DNA from: an uncultured delta proteobacterium
GTDB lineage: Bacteria > Myxococcota_A > Polyangia > Polyangiales > Polyangiaceae
Assembly: GCA_903906315.1 (NCBI GenBank)
Contig: CAIVJW010000249.1
Location: 1-49,366 of the forward strand
Length of the DNA stretch: 49,366 bases
Direction: 5' to 3'
Shown here: positions 1 through 22,818 of the stretch, one piece after another
Layout of the letters: each line of letters begins with the position of its first letter
Numbering within the stretch: the first letter of the stretch is position 1
Made by a program: the position numbers and the translations under genes
Notes under the pieces: generated by a model
The model's database searches: none
What the model was told of the DNA's origin: nothing
What the model saw: only the letters and a program-made list of their open reading frames with translations

Positions 1-47
1 GAACGCGTACGATCATTCGCGCCGTCGCGAGCCTACACAACCCGTGA

Positions 48-349
48 ACGCGTACGGTCGAGGAGGACGACCTCACCCAGTCGATCCACGCCGTCGCCGG
101 CCCCGAGTTCCTCGCTGCCCTTCGCCGCGTGCAGCCTCGCTACGAGAAGATGGTCACCGAGCGCCTGCGCCGCGACGCCGCCGTCGGGCAGAACCTGCTC
201 GACACCGTGCGCGCCCTCCAGTCCGCGATCCAGAACCACGCGCAGAACCTGATTGGCACGGTCGAGCACGATGAACCGTCCACGGTCGAGGTCGTGCGCG
301 CGGCCCTGCGTCCCATCGACGCGCACCGCGAGGCGAACGGGCGCGCCGG
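48..349 (+). pseudogene. 5'-damaged coding fragment, unknown helical protein
   Basis: One frame reads as a coherent amphipathic helical protein (LRRVQPRYEKMVTERL, then QNLLDTVRALQSAIQNHAQ, then VEVVRAALRPIDAHREANG) with real-protein composition, unlike the Arg/Pro/Ala-rich neighbours. The frame is closed by a TGA at 45-47 and has no usable start until a GTG at 129, which falls inside the coherent stretch. Downstream the same frame dissolves into low-complexity sequence at a strong hairpin (350-389) and stays open to 821 without looking coding. I infer a gene that has lost its 5' end, or one with a frameshift near 45. Two copies of GAACGCGTACG at 1-11 and 46-56 flank the break and may mark a small duplication. 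No family was recognised. Confidence 0.35.
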
Positions 350-389
350 GGCGGCTTCCACCGGGGCGCCCGATCCGGTGGAAGCCGCC
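350..389. repeat. Perfect 15-bp inverted repeat (hairpin)
   Basis: GGCGGCTTCCACCGG at 350-364 is exactly complementary to CCGGTGGAAGCCGCC at 375-389, with a 10-base loop. It lies just after the coherent part of the 48-349 fragment. It has no T tract, so it may be a GC-only terminator or a REP-like element. Confidence 0.6.
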
Positions 390-627
390 CGCGGCGCGTT
401 CGAAGTAGAGGGGGCGGGCTCCCGGGGTCTCGGGATCGGCGTTGCAAGCCGCCCCGGCGGGCCGCCCGGCCTCGCGCCTCGACTTCCAAGCAGGCGGCCC
501 CGCCCCGCGCGGCCTCCCGCTGCGTGCCTCGAAGCCGCCCGCGCGCCCGATCCGGGCCGATCGCTCGCCCCGCGGCCTCGATCCGCCGCCCCTACCGGGA
601 TCGGCCGCCTCGAGGCAAGCCGACCGG
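390..627. other. GC-rich non-coding stretch
   Basis: No frame looks like protein here: all six translate to Arg/Pro/Ala-rich low complexity. The octamer AAGCCGCC recurs at irregular spacing and several GATCCGG/GATCGGCC words occur. It forms the 3' flank of the minus-strand lipoprotein gene that ends at 628. Confidence 0.5.
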
Positions 628-1665
628 CTAGCCGCCGAAGCCGCCGTGGGCGTGCCCCCCGCCGTACGAGCGTCCGCCTCCGTGGCCTGAGCCGCCGCCA
701 TGCCCCGATCGGCCGCCGCGCCCCAGGAAGACGTGCGACGGGCTCGCGTGCACGCCGCCGAAGCCGCCGCGCGATCGCCCGTAGAAGAGGGGATCGGCGA
801 CGACGGTCTCGCGCGGGGTGACCCACAGGGTCGCCGCGTCGAGCGCCGCGCTCCACGCGACGTGATCGCCGAGCGCCTCGCAGAACGCGAGGTCGACGAG
901 GTGCACGCTGAGGCCGGCTTCCTGGTAGGCGGCCATCGTCTCGTGCAGGTCGTCCTCCTCGGTGCCGATCTCGTCGCCGTCGTCGACCACGTACGCGATG
1001 CGATCGATCCCGAGCGCGCGGAGCGTTTCGGCGTCGGGCAGGTCGGCGGGGCCGAGCAGGTAGCGGTTGTCGGTCACGCCGTCCTCGACGATCGTGTCGC
1101 GGTACGCGAGCCGCCAGGCGTCGAGCAGGAAGACCGGCGTCGACGCCTCGCCCGGCGCGGCCTGCCGCGGATCGGCCGACGTCATCGCGGCGAGCGTCTC
1201 CTCGGCGGGGACGAGCTCCGTCTCCGAAGGCCAGTTGTTGAAGGTCGGCACGAGCGACACGGCGCGCGCGGCGTACTGGCTCAGGGCGACGCCGAACGCC
1301 ACGGAGGCGGCGCCGCGCAGGTCGACCATCCAGAGCGTATTCGCAGGCAGGCCGGCGGCCGCGAGCCGGTAGGCGGCGAAGCGCGCGCGCTGCACCGCGG
1401 GGAGGGCGGCGACGTCGGGCATGTGCGTGGTCTCGGCCGTGTCGCCGAGCGCGGTGAGGAGGGTGAGCTTCTCGTAGCGCGACCAGGGATCGCTCGGGGC
1501 CAGCTGCCAGCGCGCGATCGCGTCGTCGGCCGAGGGCAGCACCACGATCCCGCTCTTCGGCGTGGACTCGTCGAAGCGGAGGAGCGCGCCCGAGGGCGTG
1601 GTCAGGCGCGAGGTGCAGGCGGCGCAGAGCAGCGCGAGCGGCGCGGCGAAGAAGAGGCTGCGCAT
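628..1665 (-). CDS. Lipoprotein with Gly/His/Ser-rich tail
   Basis: 345 residues. The N-terminus (MRSLFFAAPLALLCAACTS) is a lipoprotein signal with lipobox LCAAC, Cys17 being the expected lipidated residue. The globular part (about 18-295) has no family I recognise; it contains an acidic loop (DDGDEIGTEEDDLHE) and alternating beta/alpha segments. The last 45 residues are almost only Gly, His, Ser, Arg and Phe (for example SGHGGGSGHGGGRSYGGG), ending HGGFGG. The ATG lies 2 bases after the stop of the upstream ATP-grasp gene, so the two are surely co-transcribed. The ligase partner suggests the pair works in envelope or peptide modification, with the tail as a possible substrate or metal-binding arm. 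That role is inference only. Confidence 0.8.
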   Translation of the reverse strand: MRSLFFAAPLALLCAACTSRLTTPSGALLRFDESTPKSGIVVLPSADDAIARWQLAPSDPWSRYEKLTLLTALGDTAETTHMPDVAALPAVQRARFAAYRLAAAGLPANTLWMVDLRGAASVAFGVALSQYAARAVSLVPTFNNWPSETELVPAEETLAAMTSADPRQAAPGEASTPVFLLDAWRLAYRDTIVEDGVTDNRYLLGPADLPDAETLRALGIDRIAYVVDDGDEIGTEEDDLHETMAAYQEAGLSVHLVDLAFCEALGDHVAWSAALDAATLWVTPRETVVADPLFYGRSRGGFGGVHASPSHVFLGRGGRSGHGGGSGHGGGRSYGGGHAHGGFGG

Positions 1666-1667
1666 GG

Positions 1668-2993
1668 CTACGCCTCCGCCCCGAGGCCGTGCGCGAGGTC
1701 GGGAGCGCGATCGACCAGGACCGGCACGCAGAGCGCGTCGTGCGAGCAGTGGCTCTCCTCGGTGAGCCGCGCGAAGTAGCCGACGAACCGGCCCTCGAGC
1801 ACGTAGACGCCGAGCGTCACGAGGCGGTCGCCGAAGGGCGTGCGCACGGCCCGCTGCGGCACGGCCCGCTGCGCGATCCAGCGCTCGCCCGCCGCGCGCC
1901 GCGCGAGGACCTCGTCGACGAGATCGGCCCAGCTCGCGTCGTCGACGATCGGGCCGACGAAGACCTGGTCGCCGACGCGCCCGAGCGCGCGCTTGACGAC
2001 CCAGCCGGTGCGGTCGCCGACGAGCTCTGCGCGCGGGACGTCGCCGACCTCGCGCGACTCGGGCACGTGCGCGCGCACGGCGGCCGCGTCGGCGGCGCCG
2101 AGGCAGCCGAGCCGGGCCCAGGCGCGCGCGAGCGAGAGCTTCGACTGCGCGAAGACGTGCGCGAAGCTCGTCAGCGTGCGCACCTGGCCCGCGCGCACGG
2201 CGTCCGCGATGGCGCCGACGTTGCGCTGGCCCGCCATGTACTCGGTGGGGAAGTACCGATAGAGCGCGCTCACCTCGACGTCCCCGACGGCGAGGCCGCG
2301 ACCGGTGCGCACGGGCGCCGTCGGCGAGGCGAGGACCGCGAGGACGCCGGCGCGGGCGAGCGCGCGCTGGAGGAGCGCGCACACCTGGAGGTCCTCGGCG
2401 TACGCCGTCGAGTGCAGGAGCGCGACGGCGCCGCGCGATCCGTCCTCGCGCGTGGCGATCGCCATGATCGCGCCCGTGATCGCGGCGAGGTTGTCGCTCG
2501 GGTCGATGGCCGCGCGGTAGCCCGAGGCGCGCAGGAGGGCCGCGAGCCCGGCCGCCTCGTTGTGCCCGCCCGGGCAGTCGGCGTTGATCTCGCAGGCGTG
2601 GAGCCCGCCGTCCGCGCCGAGCAGGAGGTCGACCCGCACGAGCGACGCCTCGTCACCGGCCGCGCGCGACGCGGCCGCGAGCCGCAGCACGTCGGCGTCG
2701 AAGCCGTAGCGCGCGCGTTCGTCGTCGTCGTCGTGCGCCATCGCGGCGGCCCGCCCGACCGCGCGAGCGACCGCCTCCGAGGCGGTGACCGCGGCGCGGT
2801 GGAGGGCCGGCGACAGCACGAGCGGCCGCAGATCCACGCGCGGCTGGCCCCCGACGAACGCGTCCCAGACGAGCCACCGCTCGCGCAGCTCGCGCAGCAC
2901 CCGCCGATCCGCGAGGAGGTCGGGGCCGTCGATCGATCGCACCTCGGCTCGCTGTTCGTCGCCCGGTCGTCGCGTCGAGTCGCGGTCGTCCAT
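1668..2993 (-). CDS. Circularly permuted ATP-grasp ligase (glutathionylspermidine synthase-like)
   Basis: 441 residues. Motifs fit the circularly permuted ATP-grasp enzymes related to the glutathionylspermidine synthase C-terminal domain: CEINADCPGGHNEA (compare YEYNADTP in GspS), the nucleotide-contacting WVVKRALGRVGDQVFVG, and a C-terminal GVYVLEGRFVGYFARL. Such enzymes couple ATP hydrolysis to amide bond formation between a carboxylate and an amine; the substrates are not evident. No amidase domain is present, unlike bifunctional E. coli GspS. I chose the ATG at 2993 because GGGGAG lies 6 bases upstream and the longer frame upstream is Arg-rich shadow. It is the first gene of a two-gene unit with the Gly/His-tailed lipoprotein. 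Confidence 0.8.
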   Translation of the reverse strand: MDDRDSTRRPGDEQRAEVRSIDGPDLLADRRVLRELRERWLVWDAFVGGQPRVDLRPLVLSPALHRAAVTASEAVARAVGRAAAMAHDDDDERARYGFDADVLRLAAASRAAGDEASLVRVDLLLGADGGLHACEINADCPGGHNEAAGLAALLRASGYRAAIDPSDNLAAITGAIMAIATREDGSRGAVALLHSTAYAEDLQVCALLQRALARAGVLAVLASPTAPVRTGRGLAVGDVEVSALYRYFPTEYMAGQRNVGAIADAVRAGQVRTLTSFAHVFAQSKLSLARAWARLGCLGAADAAAVRAHVPESREVGDVPRAELVGDRTGWVVKRALGRVGDQVFVGPIVDDASWADLVDEVLARRAAGERWIAQRAVPQRAVRTPFGDRLVTLGVYVLEGRFVGYFARLTEESHCSHDALCVPVLVDRAPDLAHGLGAEA

Positions 2994-3500
2994 GGTCACT
3001 CCCCGGCGGATCGCGCACGCCCTCGGCCGGGGCTGCCTCGCGCGTGCCGCGCTGGATCGTAGCGCCGCCGCGGCGTTCGCGCGCGCGCGGTCTCCCTCGG
3101 CCTCGTCGATCGTCCCGAGGGATTTCTCCCCACGGGGCGAGTTTCCCGCCGCGCGCCGCGACCTCGGGGGCCGCGCGACCGGCGCCTCTGACACCGCGAT
3201 CAGGGCGCCCTCGCCCGCGGTCCGCGCGGCGAGCGCGAAAAGCGCTCGATTCGGCCGCGATTCGCGCATCTCGAAGGTCGGCACCCCTCTTGCGTGAGCC
3301 CCCTCCGCGTCCGGTCGGTCCCCGCGGCGATCCTGCGAGGGCTCTCGGGAACGCGCTTCGCTTCGCTTCCCTTTCACGAACGCCCACGGCGGCGGCGCAG
3401 GTCACGACAAGGACCGTCGCCGCCGTGGGCGATCACGTCGCCCCGGCGCGGCCCGCTGCCTCTCGTTTTCGCGCGTCGGCCTCGCTGGTATGCCGCGGCG
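2994..3500. other. Divergent intergenic region
   Basis: 507 bases between the minus-strand ATP-grasp gene and the plus-strand dehydrogenase. No frame looks coding. It must hold two divergent promoters, and contains one strong inverted repeat (3381-3431) about 70 bases before the dehydrogenase start. Confidence 0.6.
3381..3431. promoter_or_regulatory. 14-bp perfect inverted repeat upstream of dehydrogenase
   Basis: CGCCCACGGCGGCG at 3381-3394 is exactly complementary to 3418-3431, with a 23-base spacer. It could be an operator or an mRNA hairpin in the leader of the dehydrogenase gene. Confidence 0.45.
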
Positions 3501-4538
3501 ATGCAAACCGAAGCGATGGTCCTCTCGCGGCACGGCGGGCCCGAGGTGCTCGAGCGCCGGACGATCGAGCTCGCGGATCCCGGCGCTCGCGAGGTGCGCG
3601 TCCGCGTCCACGCCGTGGCCCTGAACCACCTCGACCTGTGGGTCCGGCGCGGCGGCCCCGCCTTCAAGCTCGCCTATCCGCATCGCCTCGGCAGCGACGT
3701 GGCGGGCGTGGTCGACGCCCTCGGTCCCGGGGCGCGCGGCGTCGCGGTCGGCGACCGCGTGATGCTCCAGCCGGGCGTGTCGTGCGGCGTGTGCCGGGCG
3801 TGCGTCGCGGGGCGCGACAACCTCTGCAAGAGCTACAAGATCCTCGGCGAGAACACGCAGGGCGGCTACGCGCGCCACGTCGTCGTGCCCGACGCGAACC
3901 TGCTCCCGATCGGCGCGTCGCTCTCGTTCGAGAGCGCCGCTGCGCTGCCGCTCTGCACGCAGACCGCGTGGCAGATGGTCTTCCGCAAGGGCGGCGTGCG
4001 CGCGGGCCAGACCGTGGTCGTGCACGCGGCCGGCAGCGGCGTGTCGACGATGGCCATCCAGATGTGCAAGCTCGCGGGCGCGCGCGTCGTCGCCACCACG
4101 ACCTCGCCCGACAAGGTCGATCCCGCGAAGAAGCTCGGCGCCGACGAGGTGATCGTGACGAGCGAGGTCGACTACCTCGCCGAGATCCGGCGCCTCTGCG
4201 GGCGCGCGGGCGCGGACGTGATCCTCGACCACGTCGGCGGCGAGCTGTTCCAGAAGGCGATCTCGGCGGTGGGCTGGGGAGGCCGCGTCGTGACCTGCGG
4301 CGCGACCGGGGGCTTCGCGGCGACGATCGATCTGCGGCAGGTCTTCTTCCGGCAGGTCGAGATCCTCGGCTCCACGATGGGCAGCAAGGGCGACCTCGCC
4401 GAGGCGCTGCCGATGATGATCGATGGCCGCCTGCGCGCGCCGATCGATCGCGTGCTGCCGCTCTGGAGCGCGCGCGAGGCCCACGAGGCGCTCGAGGGCC
4501 GCAAGGTCTTCGGCAAGGTCGTGCTCGCCGTGGACTGA
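3501..4538 (+). CDS. Zinc-binding MDR-family quinone/alcohol dehydrogenase
   Basis: 345 residues, the normal length of medium-chain dehydrogenase/reductases. The N-terminal GroES-like domain carries ALNHLDLWVRRG, typical of the quinone-oxidoreductase-like branch, and four cysteines for a structural zinc (C95, C98, C101, C109 in CGVCRACVAGRDNLC). The Rossmann domain begins near 150 with VVVHAAGSGVSTMAIQ, the NAD(P)H-binding glycine motif. The reaction is NAD(P)-dependent oxidation of an alcohol or reduction of a quinone or enone; substrate unknown. The ATG at 3501 begins exactly at the family N-terminus; the longer frame upstream is Arg/Pro-rich. Two hairpins follow the stop and probably end the transcript. 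Confidence 0.88.
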   Translation: MQTEAMVLSRHGGPEVLERRTIELADPGAREVRVRVHAVALNHLDLWVRRGGPAFKLAYPHRLGSDVAGVVDALGPGARGVAVGDRVMLQPGVSCGVCRACVAGRDNLCKSYKILGENTQGGYARHVVVPDANLLPIGASLSFESAAALPLCTQTAWQMVFRKGGVRAGQTVVVHAAGSGVSTMAIQMCKLAGARVVATTTSPDKVDPAKKLGADEVIVTSEVDYLAEIRRLCGRAGADVILDHVGGELFQKAISAVGWGGRVVTCGATGGFAATIDLRQVFFRQVEILGSTMGSKGDLAEALPMMIDGRLRAPIDRVLPLWSAREAHEALEGRKVFGKVVLAVD

Positions 4539-4567
4539 CGCGCGGCGCGGGGCCCTTCGTCGGCGCG

Positions 4568-4596
4568 CGGTGGTGCGAGAGCACGTTGCACCACCG
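4568..4596 (+). terminator. Hairpin downstream of dehydrogenase
   Basis: CGGTGGTGC at 4568-4576 pairs perfectly with GCACCACCG at 4588-4596 across an 11-base loop, 30 bases after the dehydrogenase stop. There is no T tract. Candidate terminator. Confidence 0.4.
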
Positions 4597-4615
4597 GCAG
4601 AGGGGCGAGGAGCCT

Positions 4616-4652
4616 CCCCCGGTGCGGCTCACGACGCGAGCCGCACCGGGGG
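4616..4652. terminator. Strong 15-bp hairpin
   Basis: CCCCCGGTGCGGCTC at 4616-4630 pairs perfectly with 4638-4652 across a 7-base loop. It is the second of two adjacent hairpins between the dehydrogenase and the HDOD gene. Being GC-only it could act as terminator or insulator. Confidence 0.45.
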
Positions 4653-4805
4653 CAGGTGATACTCCCCACCTCGCGCAGCACCGCAACTTGCCCTGCGGCG
4701 CGGTATCCCGCAGGATCGATCGCGAGCGGATGAACCCGCGGCGACGGGGCAGGGTCGTCGGAGTCAAGGCAGAGGGCGCCCCGCGGGGCGACGAGGCGGG
4801 CGCAA

Positions 4806-6509
4806 GTGGGGGCAGATCGGCCGGGCGACACATCGGCGCACGTCCCGTCGGGCGAGGGCGAGCAGGATCTGCTCGCGCCGCTCACGCTGCGCGAGCGATC
4901 GCTGCTCGACCGGCTGCTCCTGAAGATGGAGCGGCGCGGCGACTTCCCCGCCTTCGCGCGCAACATCACGACCGTCAGTCGCAAGGCCGACTACGCGAGC
5001 TCCTACTCGGCCTCGCAGCTCAGCGAGGAGATCCTGCGCGACTACGGGCTCACGGCGAAGCTGCTGCGCGTCGTGAACACGTCGTACTACGAGCGCCTCG
5101 GCAAGCGCGTGAACAAGGTCTCGCGCGCCATCGTGGTGCTCGGCTTCGACAAGGTGCGATCGATCGCGCTCGGCATCGTGCTCCACAAGAGCACGGGCAA
5201 GCTCGCCTCGGCGCCCGAGGTCGCCGAGAACGCCATCGAGGCCCTCGCGTGCGGCGAGATCGGGCGCCGCATCGCCCGATCGGCCGGCCTGAAGGACGCC
5301 GAAGAGGCGCACGTCTGCGCCATGTACCGCGACCTCGGCCGGCACCTCGTCGCGCACTATCTGCCCGATGACCACGCGAAGATCCGCGAGGCCGTCGTCC
5401 GCGACGGGATCGACCACGAGGCGGCCGCGGAGCACGTGCTCGGCCTCTCCACGCGGCGCATCGGCATCGGCCTCGTGCGCGCCTGGCGGCTGTCGGAGCG
5501 CCTCGCGCACAGCATGGTGCCCGCCGACGCGGCGGCGCGCACCGACTCCGACGAGGACCGACTGCGGCAGGTGGCGACGTTCTCGCACGAGCTGCACCAG
5601 CTGGTGGCGACGACGCCCGAGGCCACCCGGGACGACGCGATGGGGGCGCTCGTCGAGCGCTGGCGCACGAAGATCAAGATCTCCACCCGTCGCGTGCAGG
5701 AGACGCTCGGCGCGGTGCAGAAGACGCTCGTCGACCGCCTGCCCGTCGTGCATGGCCTCGACCCTTCCCAGAGCGCGTTCCTCCGCCACGCGGCGGCGTT
5801 CACCGGCGCGTGGCAGGAGGCTTCGCGCGGCTCGGTCCTCCCGCCCTCGGCGCGGAGGTTGTCGATCGCGCCGCGCCACTCGATGCCGCCGGACAGCGTC
5901 GTCGGACCTGGGTCGGTGCGCGCGCGCCCCGCGATCGAGGACGCGCAAGGCGCCGCGACCGTGTCGAAGAAGCTGACGGAGCTCGGCGCGGCGCTCGAGG
6001 GCGGGGGCGACGCGCTCCCGACGCTGCGGGCCGCGCTCAAGGCGGTCGCGCGCGCGTTCGGGCTTCGTCACGCGGTCGTGCTCGTCCGGACGCAAGACGG
6101 CGCGTCGCTGCGCGTGCAGGCGGCCTACGGCGAGGCCGCGCGATCGCTCGAGCAGGAGCTCATGCTGCCGCTCGCGCGCGCGGCGCGGCCCGACGACCTC
6201 GTCTCGCAGGCCTACCACGGCACGCGCGACGTGGTCGTGCTCAACACGTTCGACGAGAAGGTCGCGCCGAAGATCCCGGCGGTCTACTTCGAGGCGATCG
6301 GGTCGCTCTCCCTCGCGCTCTATCGCGTCGGATCGCCCCAGGCGGGGGTGCGCCTGGTCCTCGTCGACACCGACTTCCCGTCGCGCCTGCCCGGGCTCGA
6401 GCACGCCGATCTCCTCCGGCGTTTCCGCGAGATCATCGGCCGCGCCGCCGCAGCGAGCGGCTCGCGCGAGCCGCCGCGCGTGCGGCCGTTCGTGCCGCGG
6501 CGGCTCTGA
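4806..6509 (+). CDS. HDOD-domain signalling protein with C-terminal GAF-like region
   Basis: 567 residues. Residues about 38-235 match the HDOD output domain: LLLKMERRGDFPAFARNI, EILRDYGLTAKLLRVVNTSYY and VSRAIVVLGFDKVRSIALG are its classic helices. HDOD proteins resemble HD phosphohydrolases but mostly act as regulatory scaffolds in motility, cell cycle or c-di-GMP pathways. A Ser/Pro-rich linker (about 330-380) leads to a C-terminal alpha/beta region (about 385-550) with the spacing of a GAF-like sensor (ARAFGLRHAVVLVRTQDGASL). The start is a GTG at 4806; the first 20 residues are unordered and a later start is possible. It stands alone, 267 bases after the dehydrogenase. Confidence 0.8.
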   Translation: MGADRPGDTSAHVPSGEGEQDLLAPLTLRERSLLDRLLLKMERRGDFPAFARNITTVSRKADYASSYSASQLSEEILRDYGLTAKLLRVVNTSYYERLGKRVNKVSRAIVVLGFDKVRSIALGIVLHKSTGKLASAPEVAENAIEALACGEIGRRIARSAGLKDAEEAHVCAMYRDLGRHLVAHYLPDDHAKIREAVVRDGIDHEAAAEHVLGLSTRRIGIGLVRAWRLSERLAHSMVPADAAARTDSDEDRLRQVATFSHELHQLVATTPEATRDDAMGALVERWRTKIKISTRRVQETLGAVQKTLVDRLPVVHGLDPSQSAFLRHAAAFTGAWQEASRGSVLPPSARRLSIAPRHSMPPDSVVGPGSVRARPAIEDAQGAATVSKKLTELGAALEGGGDALPTLRAALKAVARAFGLRHAVVLVRTQDGASLRVQAAYGEAARSLEQELMLPLARAARPDDLVSQAYHGTRDVVVLNTFDEKVAPKIPAVYFEAIGSLSLALYRVGSPQAGVRLVLVDTDFPSRLPGLEHADLLRRFREIIGRAAAASGSREPPRVRPFVPRRL

Positions 6510-6586
6510 CTCGAGCGTCGCCGTCTCGAGCAACGCCCGGCGCGGGGCGACGGGTAGGGCTCGCGGGCCGCAGGCGCGGGCGCCGC

Positions 6587-6608
6587 GATCGGCGATTCCC
6601 GGCCGATC
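6587..6608. terminator. Small hairpin between convergent genes
   Basis: GATCGGC at 6587-6593 pairs with GCCGATC at 6602-6608 across 8 bases, in the 97-base gap between the HDOD gene and the convergent GYD gene. It overlaps the stop codon of the latter. Possible bidirectional terminator. Confidence 0.35.
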
Positions 6609-7386
6609 AGCGCGCGGCGGCTCGGACGACCCGGTCGAGCCGCGTGACGAGCGCGCGCGGCAGCTCGCGCGCCTCGACCAGCAGGTCGTACGCACCGCCG
6701 TCGCTTGCCGCGTCGACGCGGACGAGGTTGGCCTGGAGCGCGAGGCGCGACTTCTCCGCGACGAGCTCGAGGTGGACCGCGAGCTTCGCGTCGCGTGCCA
6801 TCTCGGTCAGGCCCGCCCGCTGCGCGTCGGCTTCCGGGAGCCGCACGAGAAACGCCCCCTGCGCCTCGCCCGGCCCGAGCGAGAGGCTCACGACGTCCAC
6901 GGCGGGGAGGCTCCCCAGCCCGAGCTTGAGCCCCGTCGCCCCCGTGGATCGTCGCCCCCGGCGCGTGTTGACTCCCGGCTTGCGCTCGGTCGGCGGCGAC
7001 GCAGCGCGCGGCCCCTTGGGGGGCGGCGTCGTCTCCTTCGTCGCGGCCGCCAGCCGGTGCTCCCGCCCGTCGAGCCAGGCCTTCAAGAAGACCGGCGACC
7101 CCTGGGCCATGCGGACGAACTCGCCGACCGGAACCGCGGGCACGTTGATGGCGTGGTAGAGCCCATTGCTCGCCAGCACCCGGTCGAGCGCCTCCATGTG
7201 CGCCTCGTCGCGTGCCTCGATGATCGACATGAGATCGAACGGGCCGAGCGTGGCGTACACCTGGAGCAGCGTGCCGCCCCCGCTCGCGATGGTCGCCGCG
7301 ATCTTCGCCAGCACCTCACCGGGGCTCTGCCTCACCTGCTTCAGGCCGGCGTCGGTGAACGTGACAATGCGTATCCAGTTGGCCAT
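6607..7386 (-). CDS. GYD-domain protein with unknown C-terminal domain
   Basis: 259 residues. Residues 1-90 (MANWIRIVTFTDAGLKQVRQ, ATLGPFDLMSIIEARD) fit the GYD family, small ferredoxin-like-fold proteins of unknown function that normally consist of this domain alone. A basic, Pro-rich linker (about 112-145) joins it to a second beta-rich domain (about 150-255) that I cannot name. Two ATGs lie side by side; I chose the second because the GAGGGG ribosome site then has a 5-base spacer. The gene is alone and converges on the HDOD gene. Confidence 0.75.
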   Translation of the reverse strand: MANWIRIVTFTDAGLKQVRQSPGEVLAKIAATIASGGGTLLQVYATLGPFDLMSIIEARDEAHMEALDRVLASNGLYHAINVPAVPVGEFVRMAQGSPVFLKAWLDGREHRLAAATKETTPPPKGPRAASPPTERKPGVNTRRGRRSTGATGLKLGLGSLPAVDVVSLSLGPGEAQGAFLVRLPEADAQRAGLTEMARDAKLAVHLELVAEKSRLALQANLVRVDAASDGGAYDLLVEARELPRALVTRLDRVVRAAAR

Positions 7387-7810
7387 CATCCCCCCTCGCC
7401 CGATGTCAAGGAACGCCGCGCCCGGTGGACCGACGATATGGAGTCGGCTGCTCGGATTGCCGCGCGTTGCGGCTTCGTAAACGCATAGCCGAGTGCGGGG
7501 AGTTCGGGAACGAGATTCGCGGCCGATTCTCGCCTGGTCGCGACGCTTTCCCCGGTGGAGCGACGCCGGTTGTCATGCGCGCCACCGATTCCGTGACGCG
7601 CGGCCGCGAACGGTCGGCGTGGCGCATCGCGGCGGGGAAGTGTCCTAGTCCAGCGCCGGGCGGCGCTCGAAGCGCGGTGCAGGGCCGGGCCGAGTCCCGC
7701 AGACGGATTCAAGCTCGGATCCGTCGAGGGCGTGCGCGTCGAGCGGTGGTCCGGGGGGTCGTCAGTCCCACGACGCCACCTCCCCCCGGGCTCCGCGCTA
7801 CAGTCCTCCC
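7387..7810. other. Divergent intergenic region
   Basis: About 420 bases between the GYD gene (minus) and the asparaginase gene (plus). Frames open here are Arg-rich and not convincing. Apart from the -10-like box next to the asparaginase start I see no structure. Confidence 0.5.
7799..7804 (+). promoter_or_regulatory. -10-like box, near-leaderless start
   Basis: TACAGT ends 6 bases before the ATG at 7811, matching the TANNNT boxes at the same position before many genes of this window. Confidence 0.45.
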
Positions 7811-8782
7811 ATGCCGGAGGTCGTCCAGACGCGCGGGCCCGTCGTCGAGTCCGTCCACCCCTTCTCGATCGCGGTCGTGCGCGACGGCGCGCTCGTCGAG
7901 GTGGTCGGCGACGACCGCCACACGACGTTCCGCTCCGCGGCCAAGCCCTTCCAGCTCGCGTGCTCGCTCGAGGTGCTCGGCGATCCCGAGCTGCCCGAGG
8001 ACGAGATCGCCATCGGCGCCGCGTCGCACAGCGGCGAGCCCGCGCACCTCGAGGTCGTCCTGCGCCTCCTCGCGCGCTTCGGCCTCGCGCCCTCCGGGCT
8101 GCGCTGCGGCGCGCACCCGCCCGTGCACGACCCGAGCGCGCGCGCGATCCTGCGCGCCGGCGGCGACTTCACCGACCTGCACAACAACTGCTCGGGCAAG
8201 CACTCGTTCATGCTCGCGGCCTCCGCGCGAGCCGGCTGGGACCTCGACTACCGGCCGCCGAAGCACCCGCTGCAGGCGCTCGCCCGCGCGCGCCTCGAGG
8301 CCTTCGCCGACGTCGCGGTGGACCTCGCCACCGATGGCTGCGGCGTGCCAACGTTCATCCTGCCGCTGTCGGCCGTGGCGCGATCCTGGGGCCGCGTCGC
8401 CACCGCGATGCGCGCGGTCGAGGCCGGCGACGCGATCGACGCGCCCGCCGCGCGCCTCGGCCGCATCGGCTGGGCGATGGCGCGACGACCGGATCTCACC
8501 TCGGGCACGGGCCGGCTCGACCAGGACGTCGTGCGCGGCGCGCGCGAGCCGATGGCCGCGAAGATCGGCGCGATGGGCCTCTTCTGCGTCGCGCTCCCGC
8601 GCCGCGGCCTCGGCCTCGCGGTCAAGGTGGCGTCCGGGTCGAGCGACGCGCTGCCCGCCGCCGTCGCGTGGGCGATCGACCGCGCGGCGCCGGGCTCGTT
8701 CGCCGAGCCGGGGAGCTGGGCGCTGCGCGACGTGCACAGCGTCGTCGGCGCCGTCGTGGGGCGCTGGGCGGCGACGGGCTGA
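7811..8782 (+). CDS. L-asparaginase II family (Rhizobium etli type)
   Basis: 323 residues, typical for this family, which is unrelated in sequence to E. coli asparaginases and related to the beta-lactamase/glutaminase fold. Signature segments are visible: FRSAAKPFQ (about 40-48), GAASHSGEP (69-77), NNCSGKH (125-131) and TDGCGVP (174-180); the SxxK-like serine-lysine pairs at FRSAAK and CSGKH are the expected catalytic and cysteine-containing zinc-site motifs. It hydrolyses L-asparagine to aspartate and ammonia, probably in the cytosol since no signal peptide is seen. The start ATG lies 6 bases after a -10-like box. It converges on the VWA gene with only 9 bases between the stops. Confidence 0.85.
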   Translation: MPEVVQTRGPVVESVHPFSIAVVRDGALVEVVGDDRHTTFRSAAKPFQLACSLEVLGDPELPEDEIAIGAASHSGEPAHLEVVLRLLARFGLAPSGLRCGAHPPVHDPSARAILRAGGDFTDLHNNCSGKHSFMLAASARAGWDLDYRPPKHPLQALARARLEAFADVAVDLATDGCGVPTFILPLSAVARSWGRVATAMRAVEAGDAIDAPAARLGRIGWAMARRPDLTSGTGRLDQDVVRGAREPMAAKIGAMGLFCVALPRRGLGLAVKVASGSSDALPAAVAWAIDRAAPGSFAEPGSWALRDVHSVVGAVVGRWAATG

Positions 8783-8791
8783 ACGGTCGCG

Positions 8792-9973
8792 TCAGAGCGT
8801 CGCGCGTCGGCCGCGCACGAGCTCGCCGACCGCCTCGCCGATGCCCTCGAGCGTCAGCGGGAACATGGGAAAGACGCTGCCGATGGCCTGCACCGTCGGG
8901 TGCGCGAAGCCCCCCGGGTCGTCGGGGTTGAGCCACACCGACCGATCGAAGTGGTCGCGCAGCCCCGCGAGCCAGTTGATGCCGGCGATCTGCGCGTCCT
9001 CACCCCAGCCGCCGCCGCCGAGCAGCTCGTAGCTCGCCATCGACGCGTCGCCGACCATCACGAGCTTGTAGTGCTTGCCGCACTCGTGGACGAGGTCGCG
9101 GACGCTCACCGGCTCCTGGAACGACTCGGTCTTGAAGACCTTGCCGTAGACGCAGTTGTGGAAATAGTACGTGCGAAGCTCCTTCCAGTGCGTCGATCGC
9201 TTGGCCGCGCTGAACAGCTGCGACACGAGGCGCGCGTACGGGTCCATCGATCCGCCGACGTCCATCATCAGGAGGACGCGCGTGTTGGGTCGGCGCGGCG
9301 GGCGCGTGACGATCTCGAGCTCGCCGGCGTTCTTGGCCGTCGCGTCGATGGTGCCCTCGATGTCGAGCTCTTGCTCGGCCCCCTCGCGGATGAACGCGCG
9401 CAGCTTGCGGAGCGCGACCTCCATCTGCCGCACGTCGAGCACGAGATCGCTGCGGTAGGGCTTGTACTTGCGCGCGTCCGCCGTCCTCATCGCCCCGCCG
9501 CGCCCGCCCGCGTTGCCGCCGACGTTGACGCCGCTCGGGTTGTAGCCCGAGTTGCCGAAGGGCGACGTGCCGCCGGTGCCGATCCAGCGGCTGCCACCGT
9601 CGTGGCGCTCCTTCTGCTCCTTCAGCCGCTCCTCGAGCAACCGCAGGACCTCCTCGAGGTCGAGCGCCTCGACGGACGCCTTCTCCTCGTCGGTGAGCGC
9701 GCGGAGCTTCGCCGGATCGCGCAGCCAGTCGAGCAGCTCCTCGGCGATCTTCTTCGCCTCGACCGCGACGCCCTTGAAGTGCGACGCGAACGCGAGGTCG
9801 AAGTCGTCGAGGTGCGCCTCGTTGTGGACGAGGATCGATCGCGCGACGAAGTAGAAGCCGTCGAGCGACGATCCGTGCAGCCCCTTCGCGAGCGCGCCCG
9901 CGAGCGCGACGGCCTCCTGCGCGCCGACCGGGACCTTGCGAGCGCGCAGCGCGTAGATGAAGCTCGCGATCAT
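8792..9973 (-). CDS. CoxE-like VWA domain protein
   Basis: 393 residues. The N-terminal half (1-130) is helical and acidic; a Gly/Asn-rich linker follows (about 128-165); residues about 225-390 form a von Willebrand A domain of the CoxE-like type (VLLMMDVGGSMDPYARLVSQLF, later YKLVMVGDASM). The usual DxSxS metal site reads DVGGS, so its first serine is replaced. These proteins work with MoxR AAA ATPases in cofactor insertion or complex assembly. The ATG lies 6 bases after the stop of the MoxR gene, AGGG next to it serving as ribosome site, so the two are one operon. No target enzyme gene is adjacent. Confidence 0.85.
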   Translation of the reverse strand: MIASFIYALRARKVPVGAQEAVALAGALAKGLHGSSLDGFYFVARSILVHNEAHLDDFDLAFASHFKGVAVEAKKIAEELLDWLRDPAKLRALTDEEKASVEALDLEEVLRLLEERLKEQKERHDGGSRWIGTGGTSPFGNSGYNPSGVNVGGNAGGRGGAMRTADARKYKPYRSDLVLDVRQMEVALRKLRAFIREGAEQELDIEGTIDATAKNAGELEIVTRPPRRPNTRVLLMMDVGGSMDPYARLVSQLFSAAKRSTHWKELRTYYFHNCVYGKVFKTESFQEPVSVRDLVHECGKHYKLVMVGDASMASYELLGGGGWGEDAQIAGINWLAGLRDHFDRSVWLNPDDPGGFAHPTVQAIGSVFPMFPLTLEGIGEAVGELVRGRRATL

Positions 9974-9979
9974 CGCGCC

Positions 9980-10819
9980 CTACGATCGGTACCGCCGCCC
10001 GCCGGCGAGGTGGTCGGCGAAGGCGACCAGGTCCTGCTCCTTCTTGAGCAGCGCGCCGAGGAAGGGCAGCGCCTGATCGAGCTTGACGCCCTCGATGCCG
10101 GACTTGCGCAGGACCGCGATCCAGTCGATGAGCTCGCTCGTCGACGGGCGCTTGCGCAGGCGCGTCATGTCGCGGATCTCGTAGAAGACCTTGAGCGTCT
10201 GCTCGGTCAGCTCGGCGCCGAGGTCCGGGTGGTGCACGCGCACGATCTGGCGCATGAAGTCGGCCTCGGGGAAATCGATGAAGTGGAACACGCACCGCCG
10301 CAGGAACGCGTCGGGCAGCTCCTTCTCGTTGTTGCTCGTGATGATGACGACCGGCCGCTCGCGCGCCGCGACCTCCTCGCCGGTCTCGACGATCTTGAAG
10401 CGCATCCGATCGAGCTCGTGCAGCAGGTCGTTCGGGAACTCGAGGTCGGCCTTGTCGATCTCGTCGATGAGCAGCACGCGGCGGCTCGGCGCCTCGAGCG
10501 CCCGCCCGAGCGGGCCGAGCTTGATGTACCGCTTGATGTCCTTGACGTCCCCGTCGCCGAAGCGCGAGTCGTAGAGGCGCTGCACGGTGTCGTAGACGTA
10601 GAGGCCGTCCTGCGCTCGGGTCGTGCTCTTGACGTGCCACGTGATGAGCTCGCTCTCGAGCGACTCCGCGATCGCCTCGGCGAGCAGCGTCTTGCCCGTG
10701 CCGGGCTCGCCCTTCACCAGCAGCGGGCGCTCGAGGGCGATGGCGCAGTTGACGGCGGCCTCGAGGGCCTCGTTGGTCAGGTAGCGTTCGGTGCCGCGGA
10801 ATCGGCGGAAGGACGACAT
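9980..10819 (-). CDS. MoxR-family AAA+ ATPase
   Basis: 279 residues. Walker A GEPGTGKT (37-44), Walker B VLLIDEIDKAD (about 115-125), sensor 1 VIITSNNEKELPDAFLRRC and the following FHFIDFPEADFM give the classic order of a MoxR/CoxD-type ATPase. Such ATPases remodel or activate partner complexes together with VWA proteins, here the CoxE-like gene immediately downstream. The ATG at 10819 follows a TAGGGT -10-like box by 9 bases, so this looks like the first gene of a two-gene, near-leaderless operon. It belongs to a different MoxR branch from the ATPase at 21832 (which has GVPGLAKT). Confidence 0.88.
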   Translation of the reverse strand: MSSFRRFRGTERYLTNEALEAAVNCAIALERPLLVKGEPGTGKTLLAEAIAESLESELITWHVKSTTRAQDGLYVYDTVQRLYDSRFGDGDVKDIKRYIKLGPLGRALEAPSRRVLLIDEIDKADLEFPNDLLHELDRMRFKIVETGEEVAARERPVVIITSNNEKELPDAFLRRCVFHFIDFPEADFMRQIVRVHHPDLGAELTEQTLKVFYEIRDMTRLRKRPSTSELIDWIAVLRKSGIEGVKLDQALPFLGALLKKEQDLVAFADHLAGGRRYRS

Positions 10820-10828
10820 GGGACCGTC

Positions 10829-10834
10829 ACCCTA
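10829..10834 (-). promoter_or_regulatory. Extended -10-like box for moxR
   Basis: On the minus strand GTGCTAGGGT places TAGGGT 9 bases before the ATG at 10819. No ribosome site fits between, so a leaderless transcript is likely. Confidence 0.5.
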
Positions 10835-10892
10835 GCACGCGATCGACGTGCCCCTCGGGCGTGCCCGACCGCTCGGCGCGGCGTCCGCGAGC

Positions 10893-11306
10893 TCACGGCT
10901 TCGCGCCGCCGTCGTCGTCGTCGTCGTCGTTGCCGCCGTCGTCGGGCGCGGGCGGCCCGCAGCTCGGCCGCAGCGGAATGCCGATGTTGAGCAGCTCGAC
11001 GCACCGATGCTCGCACCGCCGCGACCGCTCGGAGCGGGGCGGGGCCTCGCCGCCCTCCTCGCCCTCGCCGCCGCTTTCGTCGAGGCCGGGCGTGAAGCGC
11101 GCGCAGCGCTCGACCGCACGAAACCGCCCGCTTCGCTCGTCGAGCAGCAGCGTGCAGTCGACGTCGTTGCCGCTGACCGGGCAGGCCATTCGGACGTCGA
11201 CGGGTTGCACGTACCGCCGCGCTCGGGCGGTCGCGACCACCCGCACGAGCGAGGCCACGACCCCCCCGGTCGCGGCGACCAGCATCAACCAGACGGCATC
11301 CGACAT
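10893..11306 (-). CDS. Small membrane-anchored protein with Cys pairs and Asp-rich tail
   Basis: 137 residues. One N-terminal membrane helix (MSDAVWLMLVAATGGVVASL) is followed by a beta-rich domain with cysteines at MACPVSGNDVDCTLL, ERCARF, RRCEHRCVELL and PSCGPP, which may pair or bind metal. The tail is Asp-rich (DDGGNDDDDDDGG). The ATG at 11306 has GGGAGGGG about 9 bases upstream. No family recognised. It lies 73 bases upstream of the MoxR gene on the same strand, which may be coincidence because MoxR has its own promoter-like box. Confidence 0.6.
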   Translation of the reverse strand: MSDAVWLMLVAATGGVVASLVRVVATARARRYVQPVDVRMACPVSGNDVDCTLLLDERSGRFRAVERCARFTPGLDESGGEGEEGGEAPPRSERSRRCEHRCVELLNIGIPLRPSCGPPAPDDGGNDDDDDDGGAKP

Positions 11307-11617
11307 GCCGCGCCGCCCCTCCCGGCCCCCGTCGTCCGACTCTCGGGCGCGCGAGGCCTGCTCGCGCTGCGTAGAAGAGTCGTGCCGACGGTCGATCGCG
11401 CGAATTGCCGCGCATTTGGGGGTCTCACCGGGGCCGCCCCGCAAGGCGTTCGCCGCGGCTGCACGCGGTGCGTCAGGGCACCTCGGACTGCCGTCCTCGA
11501 CTCCCCGGCTCGCGCGCGGCACTTCCGAGCTCGCGCGGACTCGAACCCACCTTGGACCGCGCAGGCGATGGCTCGCTGTCGGGGGCCGCGCAGAGGGCGC
11601 CCGGCGAGCGCTCGTGC

Positions 11618-11623
11618 TACGAG
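11618..11623 (+). promoter_or_regulatory. -10-like box for hflX
   Basis: GTGCTACGAG places TACGAG 10 bases before the hflX ATG. It sits within a small perfect hairpin, GCTCGT at 11610-11615 against ACGAGC at 11619-11624. Confidence 0.35.
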
Positions 11624-11633
11624 CACGCGCCGC

Positions 11634-13028
11634 ATGTCAGCCCAAGATCCCGAGGAACGCCCGCTCGCCGTCCTTTGCGCCGTCCAGCTCCCCGGCGTGG
11701 CCGACGTGGACCACGCGGCCGATCTCGCCGAGCTCGGGCGCCTGTGCCACACGCTCGGCTTCGACGTCGTCGCCACGATCTCGCAGCGCCGCGACGCGCT
11801 CGCGGCGTCGGCCGTGCTCGGCGAGGGCAAGCTGCGCGAGCTCGCCGACCTCACGGGCGGCGCGGGCGTGGTGCCGTCGCGCGCCCCCGAGCGCAAGGAC
11901 AAGGCGCGCGTGAAGCGGATGGCCGCCACCGAGGTCGAGGATCAGCTCGACGACGACGCGGACGAGGACGCCGGGGTCGGCGACCCGCGCGCCCCCGCGC
12001 CCGAGGGGAAGCGCGCGAGCGTGGTCGTCGTCGATCACGAGATCTCGCCGAGCCAGGCCCGCAACCTCGAGAAGGCCACCGGCGCGCGCGTGCTCGACCG
12101 CACGGGCGTGATCGTCGAGATCTTCCACCGGCACGCCAAGAGCCGCGAGGCGCGCCTGCAGGTCGAGATCGCGCGCCTGAACTACGTCGCGCCGCGCCTG
12201 CGCGAGTCGCCGGGCGGCAGCGAGCGGCAGCAGGGCAAGGGCGCGGGCGAGTCGGCGCTCGAGCTCGACCGGCGCAAGATCCGCGACCGCATCGCGGAGC
12301 TCCGCCAGGAGCTCGTCGCGATCCAGAAGGAGGCCGACAACCGGCGCTACGCGCGGCGCGACCAGCTCCGCATCGCGCTCGTCGGCTACACGAACGCCGG
12401 CAAGTCGTCGCTCATGCGCGCGCTCACCGGCAGCGACGTGCTGGTCGCCGACAAGCTCTTCGCGACGCTCGACACGACCGTGCGCGCGCTGCACCCCGAG
12501 ACCAAGCCGCGGCTGCTCGTCTCCGACACGGTCGGGTTCATCAAGAAGCTGCCGCACGATCTCGTGGCGTCGTTCCGATCGACGCTCGACGAGGCGCTCG
12601 AGGCCTCGCTGCTGCTCTACGTCGTCGACGCCTCGGATCCGACGCACGAGGCGCAGCTCGACGTGACGCACGAGGTCCTGCGCGAGATCGGCGCGGACTC
12701 GGTGCCGAGCCTGCTGCTGCTGAACAAGGCCGATCGGCTCGGCGTCGAGGATCGCGCGGCCCTCGCCGCGAAGCACGAGGGCGCCATCCTGCTTTCGGCC
12801 AAGGACCCGGCCGACGTCGCGGCGCTCCGGCAGGCGATCCTCGACTTCTTCGAGCGATCGATGGTCGAGGAGGACCTCGTGATCCCGTACGCGAAGCACG
12901 GGCGCCTCGGCGAGGTCTACGAGAGCGCGCGCGTCGTGTCGGAGGAGTACGACGAGTCCGGCACGCGCCTGCGCGTCCGCGGGCTGCCGGCTGCGATCGC
13001 GAAGCTGCGGCGCGCGTTCGCGTCGTGA
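11634..13028 (+). CDS. hflX: GTPase HflX
   Basis: 464 residues. The N-terminal HflX domain contains AVLGEGKLRELADL and VVVDHEISPSQARNLEKATG; a coiled helix (ELDRRKIRDRIAELRQEL) precedes the GTPase domain with G1 GYTNAGKSS, G2 TLDTTVR, G3 DTVGFIKKLPHDLV and G4 NKADRL. HflX is a ribosome-associated GTPase that splits stalled 70S ribosomes under stress. An acidic, Pro-containing insertion (about residues 100-128, EDQLDDDADEDAG) separates the two halves of the N-terminal domain and is longer than in E. coli HflX. The ATG at 11634 was chosen because the protein begins there with a normal N-terminus; the frame upstream is shadow. There is no hfq nearby. Confidence 0.93.
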   Translation: MSAQDPEERPLAVLCAVQLPGVADVDHAADLAELGRLCHTLGFDVVATISQRRDALAASAVLGEGKLRELADLTGGAGVVPSRAPERKDKARVKRMAATEVEDQLDDDADEDAGVGDPRAPAPEGKRASVVVVDHEISPSQARNLEKATGARVLDRTGVIVEIFHRHAKSREARLQVEIARLNYVAPRLRESPGGSERQQGKGAGESALELDRRKIRDRIAELRQELVAIQKEADNRRYARRDQLRIALVGYTNAGKSSLMRALTGSDVLVADKLFATLDTTVRALHPETKPRLLVSDTVGFIKKLPHDLVASFRSTLDEALEASLLLYVVDASDPTHEAQLDVTHEVLREIGADSVPSLLLLNKADRLGVEDRAALAAKHEGAILLSAKDPADVAALRQAILDFFERSMVEEDLVIPYAKHGRLGEVYESARVVSEEYDESGTRLRVRGLPAAIAKLRRAFAS

Positions 13029-13676: not shown

Positions 13677-14495
13677 CTACGGCTCGATCAGTCGCACGCT
13701 CGACGCGGGCACGAAGCCCTCGCTCGATCCCCAGCGCACGCGCACGAGGCCGGCGCGGCGATCGCCGACCTCGACCGCCGCGGCCTCCGGCGCGACCGCG
13801 TTGCCGATCGGTTTGCCCGACTCGTCGGTGATCGCGGCCTCGGGCACCACGATGACGCCCGCGCGCGTCCCGAGGCGGAGCGCGCGCGCCCCCCAGGTGA
13901 TCGGGACCAGCGCGACCAGCGCCACGGCGGCCACGGGCCAGAGCACGCTGCCCACGACGTGCAGCGGGCCGGTCGGTCGCCGCCGCAGGACGAGGCCGAC
14001 CGCGAGCAGCAGCGAGGCCGCGATCGCCGCGAAGCCCCAGGTCTCCTCGGACGCGAGCCCGACCACCATCCGGTCGAGCGTGGGGCGCACGTCGACGACG
14101 TCCTTGTCGCGCCGCGACCGCCTGCGCGTCACCTCGGCGCGGACGAGGTCGAGCGCGGCGTCGGCGTCCGCGTCGCCCGGCCGCAGGCGCAGCGCCTCCT
14201 CGAAGCCGGCCGCAGCGCGCCCGAGATCGCCGGGCTTGTCGGCCTTCGCGCGCACGCGCATCACGTACGCGAGGCCGCGGTCGAAGCTCGCGTCGGGGTG
14301 CACGAAGCCCTGGTCGGCGAGCGCCTCGAAGCCGTCGACCGCCGCGCCGTGCTCGCCGCGCGCGAGGGCGTCGGCCGCCCTCTGGAAGAGCGCCTCCGGT
14401 GCGGGCGGGGAGTCGTCCGCGCGCGCCGGCGTCGCGGTCGCTAGGAAGGCGGCGAACGCGGCGCCGACCCGGAGAGCGATCCGCGTGCGCCTCAT
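13677..14495 (-). CDS. batE: BatE-like TPR and SH3 membrane protein
   Basis: 272 residues. Signal peptide (1-26, cleavage near TPARA), then TPR-like helices (about 30-115: FQRAADALARGEHGAAVDGFEAL, AAAGFEEALRLRPGDADA), two membrane helices (about 150-205: FAAIAASLLLAVGLVL, VLWPVAAVALVALVPITW) and a C-terminal bacterial SH3-like domain (GLVRVRWGSSEGFVPASSVRLIEP). This is the architecture of BatE proteins, the last gene of Bacteroides aerotolerance operons. Its ATG overlaps the BatD stop by 4 bases (ATGA), so translation is probably coupled. Confidence 0.8.
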   Translation of the reverse strand: MRRTRIALRVGAAFAAFLATATPARADDSPPAPEALFQRAADALARGEHGAAVDGFEALADQGFVHPDASFDRGLAYVMRVRAKADKPGDLGRAAAGFEEALRLRPGDADADAALDLVRAEVTRRRSRRDKDVVDVRPTLDRMVVGLASEETWGFAAIAASLLLAVGLVLRRRPTGPLHVVGSVLWPVAAVALVALVPITWGARALRLGTRAGVIVVPEAAITDESGKPIGNAVAPEAAAVEVGDRRAGLVRVRWGSSEGFVPASSVRLIEP

Positions 14496-21802: not shown

Positions 21803-21831
21803 GGCGTCTCGTGGGTCGCGGCCGGAGGGCC

Positions 21832-22818
<987 letters not shown>

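Follow-up and report, generated by a model that had tools for sequence, protein, structure and literature searches.

Genetic organization of the locus

The analyzed stretch of DNA (the window; 49,366 nucleotides) is the entire contig CAIVJW010000249.1 of assembly GCA_903906315.1 (G000:C249 in our collection), derived from an uncultured delta proteobacterium of the family Polyangiaceae, and its sequence ends at base 1. Near this end the minus strand carries two genes separated by two bases: (i) a gene for a 441-aa ATP-grasp ligase (ATG at position 2993, stop codon at 1668–1670) and (ii) a gene for a 345-aa lipoprotein with a C-terminal tail of Gly, His, Ser and Arg (ATG at 1665, stop codon at 628–630). 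Since no gene was called within bases 1–627, and the next called gene upstream of the ligase gene (at 3516) is divergent, these genes form a two-gene module in the window, and the two-base spacing given in the original prediction, which had been made from the sequence of this DNA, holds. The tail of the lipoprotein is considered below as the probable substrate of the ligase.

The ligase

The only Pfam match of the ligase up to an E-value of 10 was GSP_synth (PF03738; residues 72–412, 33.8 bits with a cut-off of 29.3, E = 2.8e-8), so there was no amidase match. The protein aligns over its full length with synthetase-only ligases and carries no N-terminal amidase fusion of the GspSA type. An alignment of 28 ligases (the window protein, 25 relatives and the Escherichia coli proteins YgiC and YjfC, both named peptide--spermidine ligase in RefSeq) was compared as a profile with PDB sequences, which gave matches to YjfC (E = 1.2e-97), YgiC (7.1e-95), GspSA (2.8e-26) and trypanothione synthetase (5.5e-22). 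A PDB sequence search with the single ligase sequence gave no match up to E = 1.

Since YgiC and YjfC are themselves rows of the search profile, the comparison of structures provides the independent test. The AlphaFold2 (AF2) model of the ligase, built without the E. coli rows, had a mean predicted local distance difference test score (pLDDT) of 92.1. Its best solved matches were YjfC (Z 36.0 over 371 residues) and YgiC (Z 34.5); GspSA (Z 32.1), trypanothione synthetase (Z 29.7) and human glutathione synthetase (2hgs; Z 27.0) were also matched. The fold of glutathione synthetase is the classic circularly permuted ATP-grasp.

Residues R316, D318, E330, N332, K498, K533 and R598 of GspSA, which we take to be its ATP/Mg and catalytic residues, correspond to R120, D122, E135, N137, K285, K334 and R409 of the ligase, and all seven are invariant in the 28 aligned ligases. 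The acidic pair E200-D201 was aligned at most one residue from GspSA E391/E392, presumably the polyamine-binding contacts; D201 is invariant (28/28) and position 200 is occupied by Glu or Asp in every row. The sole Pfam match, above its cut-off, and the retained GspSA residues thus agree with the earlier description of a GspS-like ATP-grasp ligase devoid of the amidase domain.

The partner lipoprotein

The lipoprotein had been described as unrecognised, and no known family was found for it: there was no Pfam match up to E = 10, NCBIfam gave only a sub-threshold match to FliE, and a single-protein search of PDB sequences gave matches at chance level. It is not a DUF1190 protein (PF06693), as judged from profile-profile probabilities of 0.1% and 1.7%, obtained with DUF1190 alignments of just 2 and 9 rows, respectively. 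The AF2 model (mean pLDDT 70.7 for the whole protein) contains an alpha/beta core, for which Foldseek found no PDB match at E ≤0.001 and VIA-align none above Z 4.1.

Relatives of the lipoprotein were aligned in 11 rows (window included) that had been chosen by BLAST and not by motif. Six charged residues of the core (D115, R117, D182, R185, D199 and R201) are invariant in this alignment, which suggests a candidate binding or catalytic site. The signal peptide of the window protein is lipobox-like, but has a Cys at position −3. Cys17 is kept in all nine aligned rows with a complete N-terminus, including the window.

A decayed second copy of the gene pair, excluded from the alignment, was found in the same genome (L075; G000:C354:2-2491, minus strand). 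In this copy, ligase residues ~171–316 and ~372–423 are fused in frame to lipoprotein residues ~40–290; K334 and the signal peptide are missing, and the contig end cuts the end of the tail.

Co-occurrence of the ligase and the lipoprotein

The distribution of the two genes was analyzed in two sets of genomes. Among 59 genomes (that of the window included), 19 contained the ligase, and precisely these 19 also contained the lipoprotein. Of 377 Myxococcota genomes, 43 contained a full-length ligase, 45 the partner and 42 both (both/ligase only/partner only/neither: 42/1/3/331; Fisher p about 6e-51, uncorrected for relatedness). The partner occurs without a full-length ligase in three genomes (G232, G261 and G319), in each case at a contig end or close to one.

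The full-length ligases occupy 50 places (E at most 1.7e-79, a threshold chosen after the results had been seen). In 46 of them the partner shares the contig with the ligase, no more than 3.8 kb from it, and in three more it is on another contig. Weaker ligase-like matches were present in 52 further genomes, 51 of which lack the partner. The ligase and the tailed protein thus form a conserved pair in Myxococcota, and neither finding that would have refuted the original prediction was obtained: the full-length homologues of the ligase are regularly accompanied by the lipoprotein, and the latter matches no Pfam family.

In a tree of 54 ligases, the relatives of the window ligase cluster together (100/100) and split into three supported subgroups, corresponding to three types of loci, termed A (including the window), B and C.

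Conservation of the C-terminal tail

Residues 293–345 of the lipoprotein are predicted to be disordered (pLDDT under 50). The Gly/His/Ser/Arg tail noted in the original prediction proved to be real, its length being 46 residues (300–345) instead of 45. Its Gly/His character is specific to the window, the tails of relatives being composed of Gly, Ser, Arg, Trp and Phe. The GGFG motif that opens the tail is invariant in all 11 rows of the BLAST-chosen alignment. In the wider set of type A loci, GG[FY]G was found in 16/18 tails and SGFG in 2/18, but the regular expression used to sort type A contained the GFG motif, and this count is thus not independent. The BLAST-chosen alignment and motif-free counts over all tails are independent of the motif sorting.

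For these counts, 71 partner places were taken, two of which (G308:C246 and G358:C374) were not on a fetched locus; three of the remaining 69 (G000:C354, G319 and G109) were excluded, as a contig end truncates their reading frame, which left 66. Of a set of 80 loci, 53 were matched by the partner profile and 74 had a called ligase. With partner proteins over 240 aa added, 103 distinct tails were obtained in total. They were compared with 750 other called proteins: a C-terminal Gly was present in 80/103 tails (92/750 others), a C-terminal Gly or Ser in 97/103 (140/750), and no Asp or Glu was found within the last 20 residues in 82/103 (52/750). The mean Asp+Glu content of the last 20 residues was 1.7% in the tails and 11.7% in the others. 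All 18 type A tails end with Gly-Gly and all 18 lack Asp, Glu and Lys in their last 20 residues. The GGFG-opened tail of the partner proteins is not a product of chance.

Since type A tails contain no Asp or Glu in this region, the C-terminal carboxylate is the sole one there. The same feature led to the rejection of a graspetide system, a type of ribosomally synthesized and post-translationally modified peptide (RiPP), as graspetide core peptides need acidic residues for their ester or amide rings. Metal binding by His was likewise rejected as a general role of the tail, since relatives do not share the His residues.

Three types of loci

A six-frame profile search, in which the window was covered for bases 1–12000, revealed no DUF350 in the 18 type A loci; the type B/C loci L087 and L086, used as positive controls, were both detected. 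Six-frame profile counts were used since the initial gene calls had missed the ligase in 5/18 type A loci. Two other proteins recur in type A (e.g. L063:3389-5139): a lipoprotein of ~360 aa with a weak GH18 match (14/18 loci) and a beta-barrel-like protein of ~220 aa (8/18), both of which, in the loci with called genes, lie on the upstream side of the ligase. Neither lies beside the ligase in the examined part of the window, and the 360-aa lipoprotein was not found in the genome of the window, in a search with one relative as query and without a positive control.

Type B loci also occur in records titled Chlorobiota, Bacteroidetes, Planctomycetota and Thermoanaerobaculia, among others. In 38/58 type B partners a twin-arginine motif precedes the apolar stretch. 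DUF350 was called in 44/69 type B and 5/12 type C loci, and type B loci also hold protein families of 277, 191 and 247 aa.

Of the seven called type C partners, four (L086, L093, L152 and L153) have no N-terminal signal and one is cut by a contig end. The remaining two (L203 and L216) have a signal; they were typed C by the tail pattern only and may belong to type B. In the four signal-less cases the start of the partner gene overlaps the end of the ligase gene, and a longer start is therefore unlikely. All four retain a tail of the GGFG or GTFG type, so export of the partner is not essential.

Across 139 loci, some of them overlapping (for type B, e.g. L087:7366-11213), DUF350 was present in 82. 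The ~277-aa family comprises 94 proteins in 55 loci and the ~191-aa family occurs in 66 loci; one member of each was scanned, with no Pfam match. The ~247-aa family was found in 28 loci, and one member gave a WelO5-like match.

Similar tails on unrelated partners

The E. coli proteins YgiB and YjfM, encoded beside YgiC and YjfC, end with TRGGFG...SRSMGG and SRGGYG...GHWGG, respectively. The trait shared by these neighbours, RGG[FY]G...GG, is also present in the window tail. A search of 356 Myxococcota genomes for DUF1190 itself was negative, while the E. coli and Caulobacter controls were detected.

Further partners were sought in 22 plasmid-borne ligase neighbourhoods, hand-picked for diversity from the listed matches and not at random; the window ligase as query gave no match on plasmids. 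A DUF1190 gene lies near the ligase in 8/22. In 12/22, a Gly/Ser-rich end is carried by another protein, the product of the gene directly upstream of the ligase. These twelve come from Arthrobacter, Tsukamurella, Deinococcus, three cyanobacteria and six Bacillota, i.e. from four other phyla (Bacillota, Cyanobacteriota, Actinomycetota and Deinococcota), and none of the ten that were scanned exceeded a Pfam cut-off. One of the tailed proteins, from an Arthrobacter plasmid (L260:2763-3269; 168 aa), ends with VTRGGFGGGAKGGGGHGG; it is annotated as a tRNA-dihydrouridine synthase and has no Pfam match up to E = 0.1.

The ends were compared by a composition criterion that was set after the tails had been seen: at least five Gly or Ser among the last 12 residues, no Asp or Glu there, and Gly or Ser as the last residue. 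Such an end was found in type A (18/18), type B (63/69) and DUF1190 partners (10/10), in 11/12 of the other upstream proteins (the single failure being that of Lactococcus) and in none of 861 background proteins. Four of the 103 tails (two odd, one cut by a contig end and one probably mis-called) were untyped and left out of this comparison. Around 18 distant ligase-like matches, no such end was present among 89 called genes, few genes being callable in six of these loci. An unfiltered scan of open reading frames (ORFs) gave matches in 2/18 distant loci, without the look of the tail, and the expected tail in 17/17 type A loci.

The cores of the other partners showed no similarity to the window core, apart from one weak, one-way match (Aureimonas DUF1190, E = 0.009 over 46 residues). 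The Bacillota partners resemble one another over 26–67 residues, mostly signal peptides, and the three cyanobacterial partners form one family. Since the tail persists while its carrier changes, it is best explained as the element that the ligase recognises.

This distribution bears on two alternative explanations. The ligase might make a small polyamine-peptide metabolite, with the lipoprotein acting as its sensor, carrier or effector and the tail as a binding or docking element. The ligase fold, common to GspSA and trypanothione synthetase, both of which act on glutathione, would suit such a role, and the charged residues that do not vary in the partner core are what one would expect of a binding or catalytic site. 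A shared metabolite, however, would rather keep a common binding core, whereas the cores vary by lineage (DUF1190, the alpha/beta family, small Bacillota lipoproteins, the cyanobacterial family) and it is the tail that persists; we regard this explanation as unlikely, though conceivable. We regard as highly unlikely the view of the tail as an unremarkable Gly/His-rich end for metal binding or surface adhesion, with the ligase coupled to it for some other reason. Such an end would be in keeping with the His residues of the window tail and with the term metal-chelating lipoprotein, applied to DUF1190 in PMC11237479, but His is not conserved in the relatives, the tail tracks the ligase across unrelated partners and phyla, and it is absent from the genes called around the distant ligase-like matches, with the restriction given above.

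Proposed reaction

Polyamine genes in the genome of the window include one for S-adenosylmethionine decarboxylase (E = 1.1e-20) and those for spermidine-synthase-like proteins (best E = 6.2e-32); a search of the genome for nspC was negative. In the GspSA reaction, spermidine is attached to glutathione through the glycine carboxylate of the latter. The persistence of the tail, the chemistry of GspSA, the sole carboxylate of the type A tail and the presence of polyamine genes together lead us to propose polyamine capping of the C-terminus in the cytosol. According to this proposal, which we consider fairly probable, the enzyme is a peptide-polyamine ligase of the GSP_synth family that acts on the disordered C-terminal tail of the lipoprotein encoded next to it. 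With ATP, the cytosolic ligase would activate the carboxylate of the C-terminal glycine, which would then be joined to an amine, most likely spermidine; the capped, polycationic lipoprotein would subsequently be exported and lipidated, and its cationic tail may act at the cell envelope. The envelope role is a guess, made by analogy with the PspA-linked operons described in PMC11237479.

A reaction in the cytosol is compatible with the signal-less type C partners, which keep the motif. The twin-arginine route exports folded proteins, and export of folded type B partners in this way, together with the lack of a signal in type C, would allow capping before export.

The ligase might also modify the tail in a different manner, by adding an amino acid or a peptide or forming another amide, or by acting at a site other than the C-terminus. 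RimK- and LysX-like ligases, which modify protein or carrier C-termini, belong to the wider fold class and match the ligase model (Z about 9), and most type C tails offer Asp or Glu. Type A tails, on the other hand, are free of Asp, Glu and Lys in their last 20 residues, RefSeq gives the name peptide--spermidine ligase to the closest relatives of solved structure, and the acidic pair near GspSA E391/E392 is retained, which makes this alternative distinctly unlikely.

Several observations weigh against polyamine capping of the tail. The identity of the ligase to YgiC and YjfC is 17%. In the midpoint-rooted tree (54 rows), types A, B and C are separate from the DUF1190-linked ligases. A strict rule of a C-terminal Gly fails and was rejected owing to types B and C (50/69 and 10/12 tails ending with Gly, respectively). 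In type C, Asp or Glu occurs in the last 20 residues of 11/12 tails, and only 2/12 have the Gly/Ser-rich end defined above. The [GS]-hydrophobic-G motif alone is weak, being present in 157/861 background proteins. One genome (G237) has a full-length ligase with neither a partner nor a tailed ORF on the 6.2 kb read, and for two similar Azospirillum ligases the stretch read shows no neighbour with such a tail, one antisense-looking ORF there (L275) passing the composition test. The weak point is the lipoprotein of type A, whose Sec-type export gives an enzyme of the cytosol only a short time to act.

In its wider form the proposal describes a C-terminal tag distributed across phyla: a disordered, Gly/Ser-rich and acid-free tail, opened by G[FYILM]G, borne by unrelated exported or cytosolic carriers and polyamine-capped by a neighbouring ATP-grasp ligase. 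We see about equal grounds for accepting and for doubting this generalization. If capping of the tail is confirmed, (i) a protein substrate could be named for a widespread enzyme family, (ii) bacteria would possess a C-terminal polyamine modification of proteins, a counterpart of C-terminal polyamine conjugation, (iii) YgiB and YjfM would be the physiological substrates of YgiC and YjfC, and (iv) polyamine metabolism would be tied to envelope proteins in several phyla. A rule for finding further substrates, unseen by the family libraries used, would be to inspect the last 50 residues of the product of the ligase-adjacent gene.

Features of the window

The coordinates of the features of the gene pair are summarized in Table 1. 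Elsewhere in the window, two AAA-VWA gene groups were identified: the first (8792–10819) encodes a VWA_CoxE protein and an AAA ATPase, and the second (14492–22818) MoxR-type AAA, VWA and BatD proteins. An L-asparaginase II (PF06089, E = 6.7e-77) and an HDOD protein are encoded at 7811–8782 and 4806–6509, respectively.

Table 1. Position of the ligase and lipoprotein genes and of their predicted features within the window.
Feature	Position	Strand	Basis
GSP_synth-family ATP-grasp ligase, type A clade, amidase-free	1668..2993	-	ORF, PF03738, AF2 model, fold matches
R120 and D122 (GspSA R316/D318)	2628..2636	-	invariant 28/28 including YgiC and YjfC
E200-D201 acidic pair	2391..2396	-	alignment to GspSA E391/E392
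K285 (GspSA K498)	2139..2141	-	alignment
K334 (GspSA K533)	1992..1994	-	alignment
R409 (GspSA R598)	1767..1769	-	alignment
Partner lipoprotein, 345 aa	628..1665	-	ORF; homologues near ligase in relatives
Signal peptide, lipobox-like end, conserved Cys17	1615..1665	-	Cys in 9 aligned rows
Alpha/beta core, residues 32-290	796..1572	-	AF2 model
GGFG motif, residues 300-303, opens tail	757..768	-	invariant in 11/11 rows
Gly/His/Ser/Arg tail, residues 300-345, no Asp/Glu/Lys	631..768	-	sequence; pLDDT <50; tail statistics

Relation to known systems

The original prediction had suggested a modification, or a small-molecule or envelope link, not covered by known GspS biology. A link between the ligase and the tail is supported by the conserved pair and the persistent tail. 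The claim of novelty was partly right, since YgiC and YjfC are already found beside DUF1190 proteins with a similar tail. The ligase family and its operon link to DUF1190 and DUF350 are known (RefSeq names and PMC11237479). In the accessible parts of the literature searched, including PMC10948618, PMC12270671, PMC12568646, PMC4431377 and PMC8939145, no description of the tail was found, and an earlier mention is possible. Barring such a mention, the carrier family without a Pfam match, the three targeting types and the occurrence of similar tails on several unrelated carriers are new.

With GspSA and trypanothione synthetase the window ligase shares the synthetase fold, and the ATP/Mg residues of GspSA are kept; it differs from GspSA in having no amidase match and in being paired with a protein, glutathione not being a known substrate. 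According to PMC11237479, PspA-linked operons combine ATP-grasp, DUF350 and DUF1190 genes. Type B and C relatives likewise have DUF350 near the ligase, whereas type A loci differ in lacking it over the range searched. Conjugation of spermidine to the C-terminal Gly-Gly carboxylate of SUMO/ubiquitin, reported in PMC12270671, offers an analogy only, as that system is eukaryotic and employs E1/E2 chemistry.

The closest counterparts are the E. coli pairs YgiC/YgiB and YjfC/YjfM, which, like the window, combine a stand-alone GSP_synth ligase with a tailed protein that has an apolar, Cys-containing N-terminal part. The ligases are alike in fold, amidase-free size and catalytic residues, but the window ligase, at the low identity given above, belongs to a separate clade, and for the core of its partner no relation to DUF1190 was seen. 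The window module is thus a YgiC/YgiB-like system with a different carrier protein.

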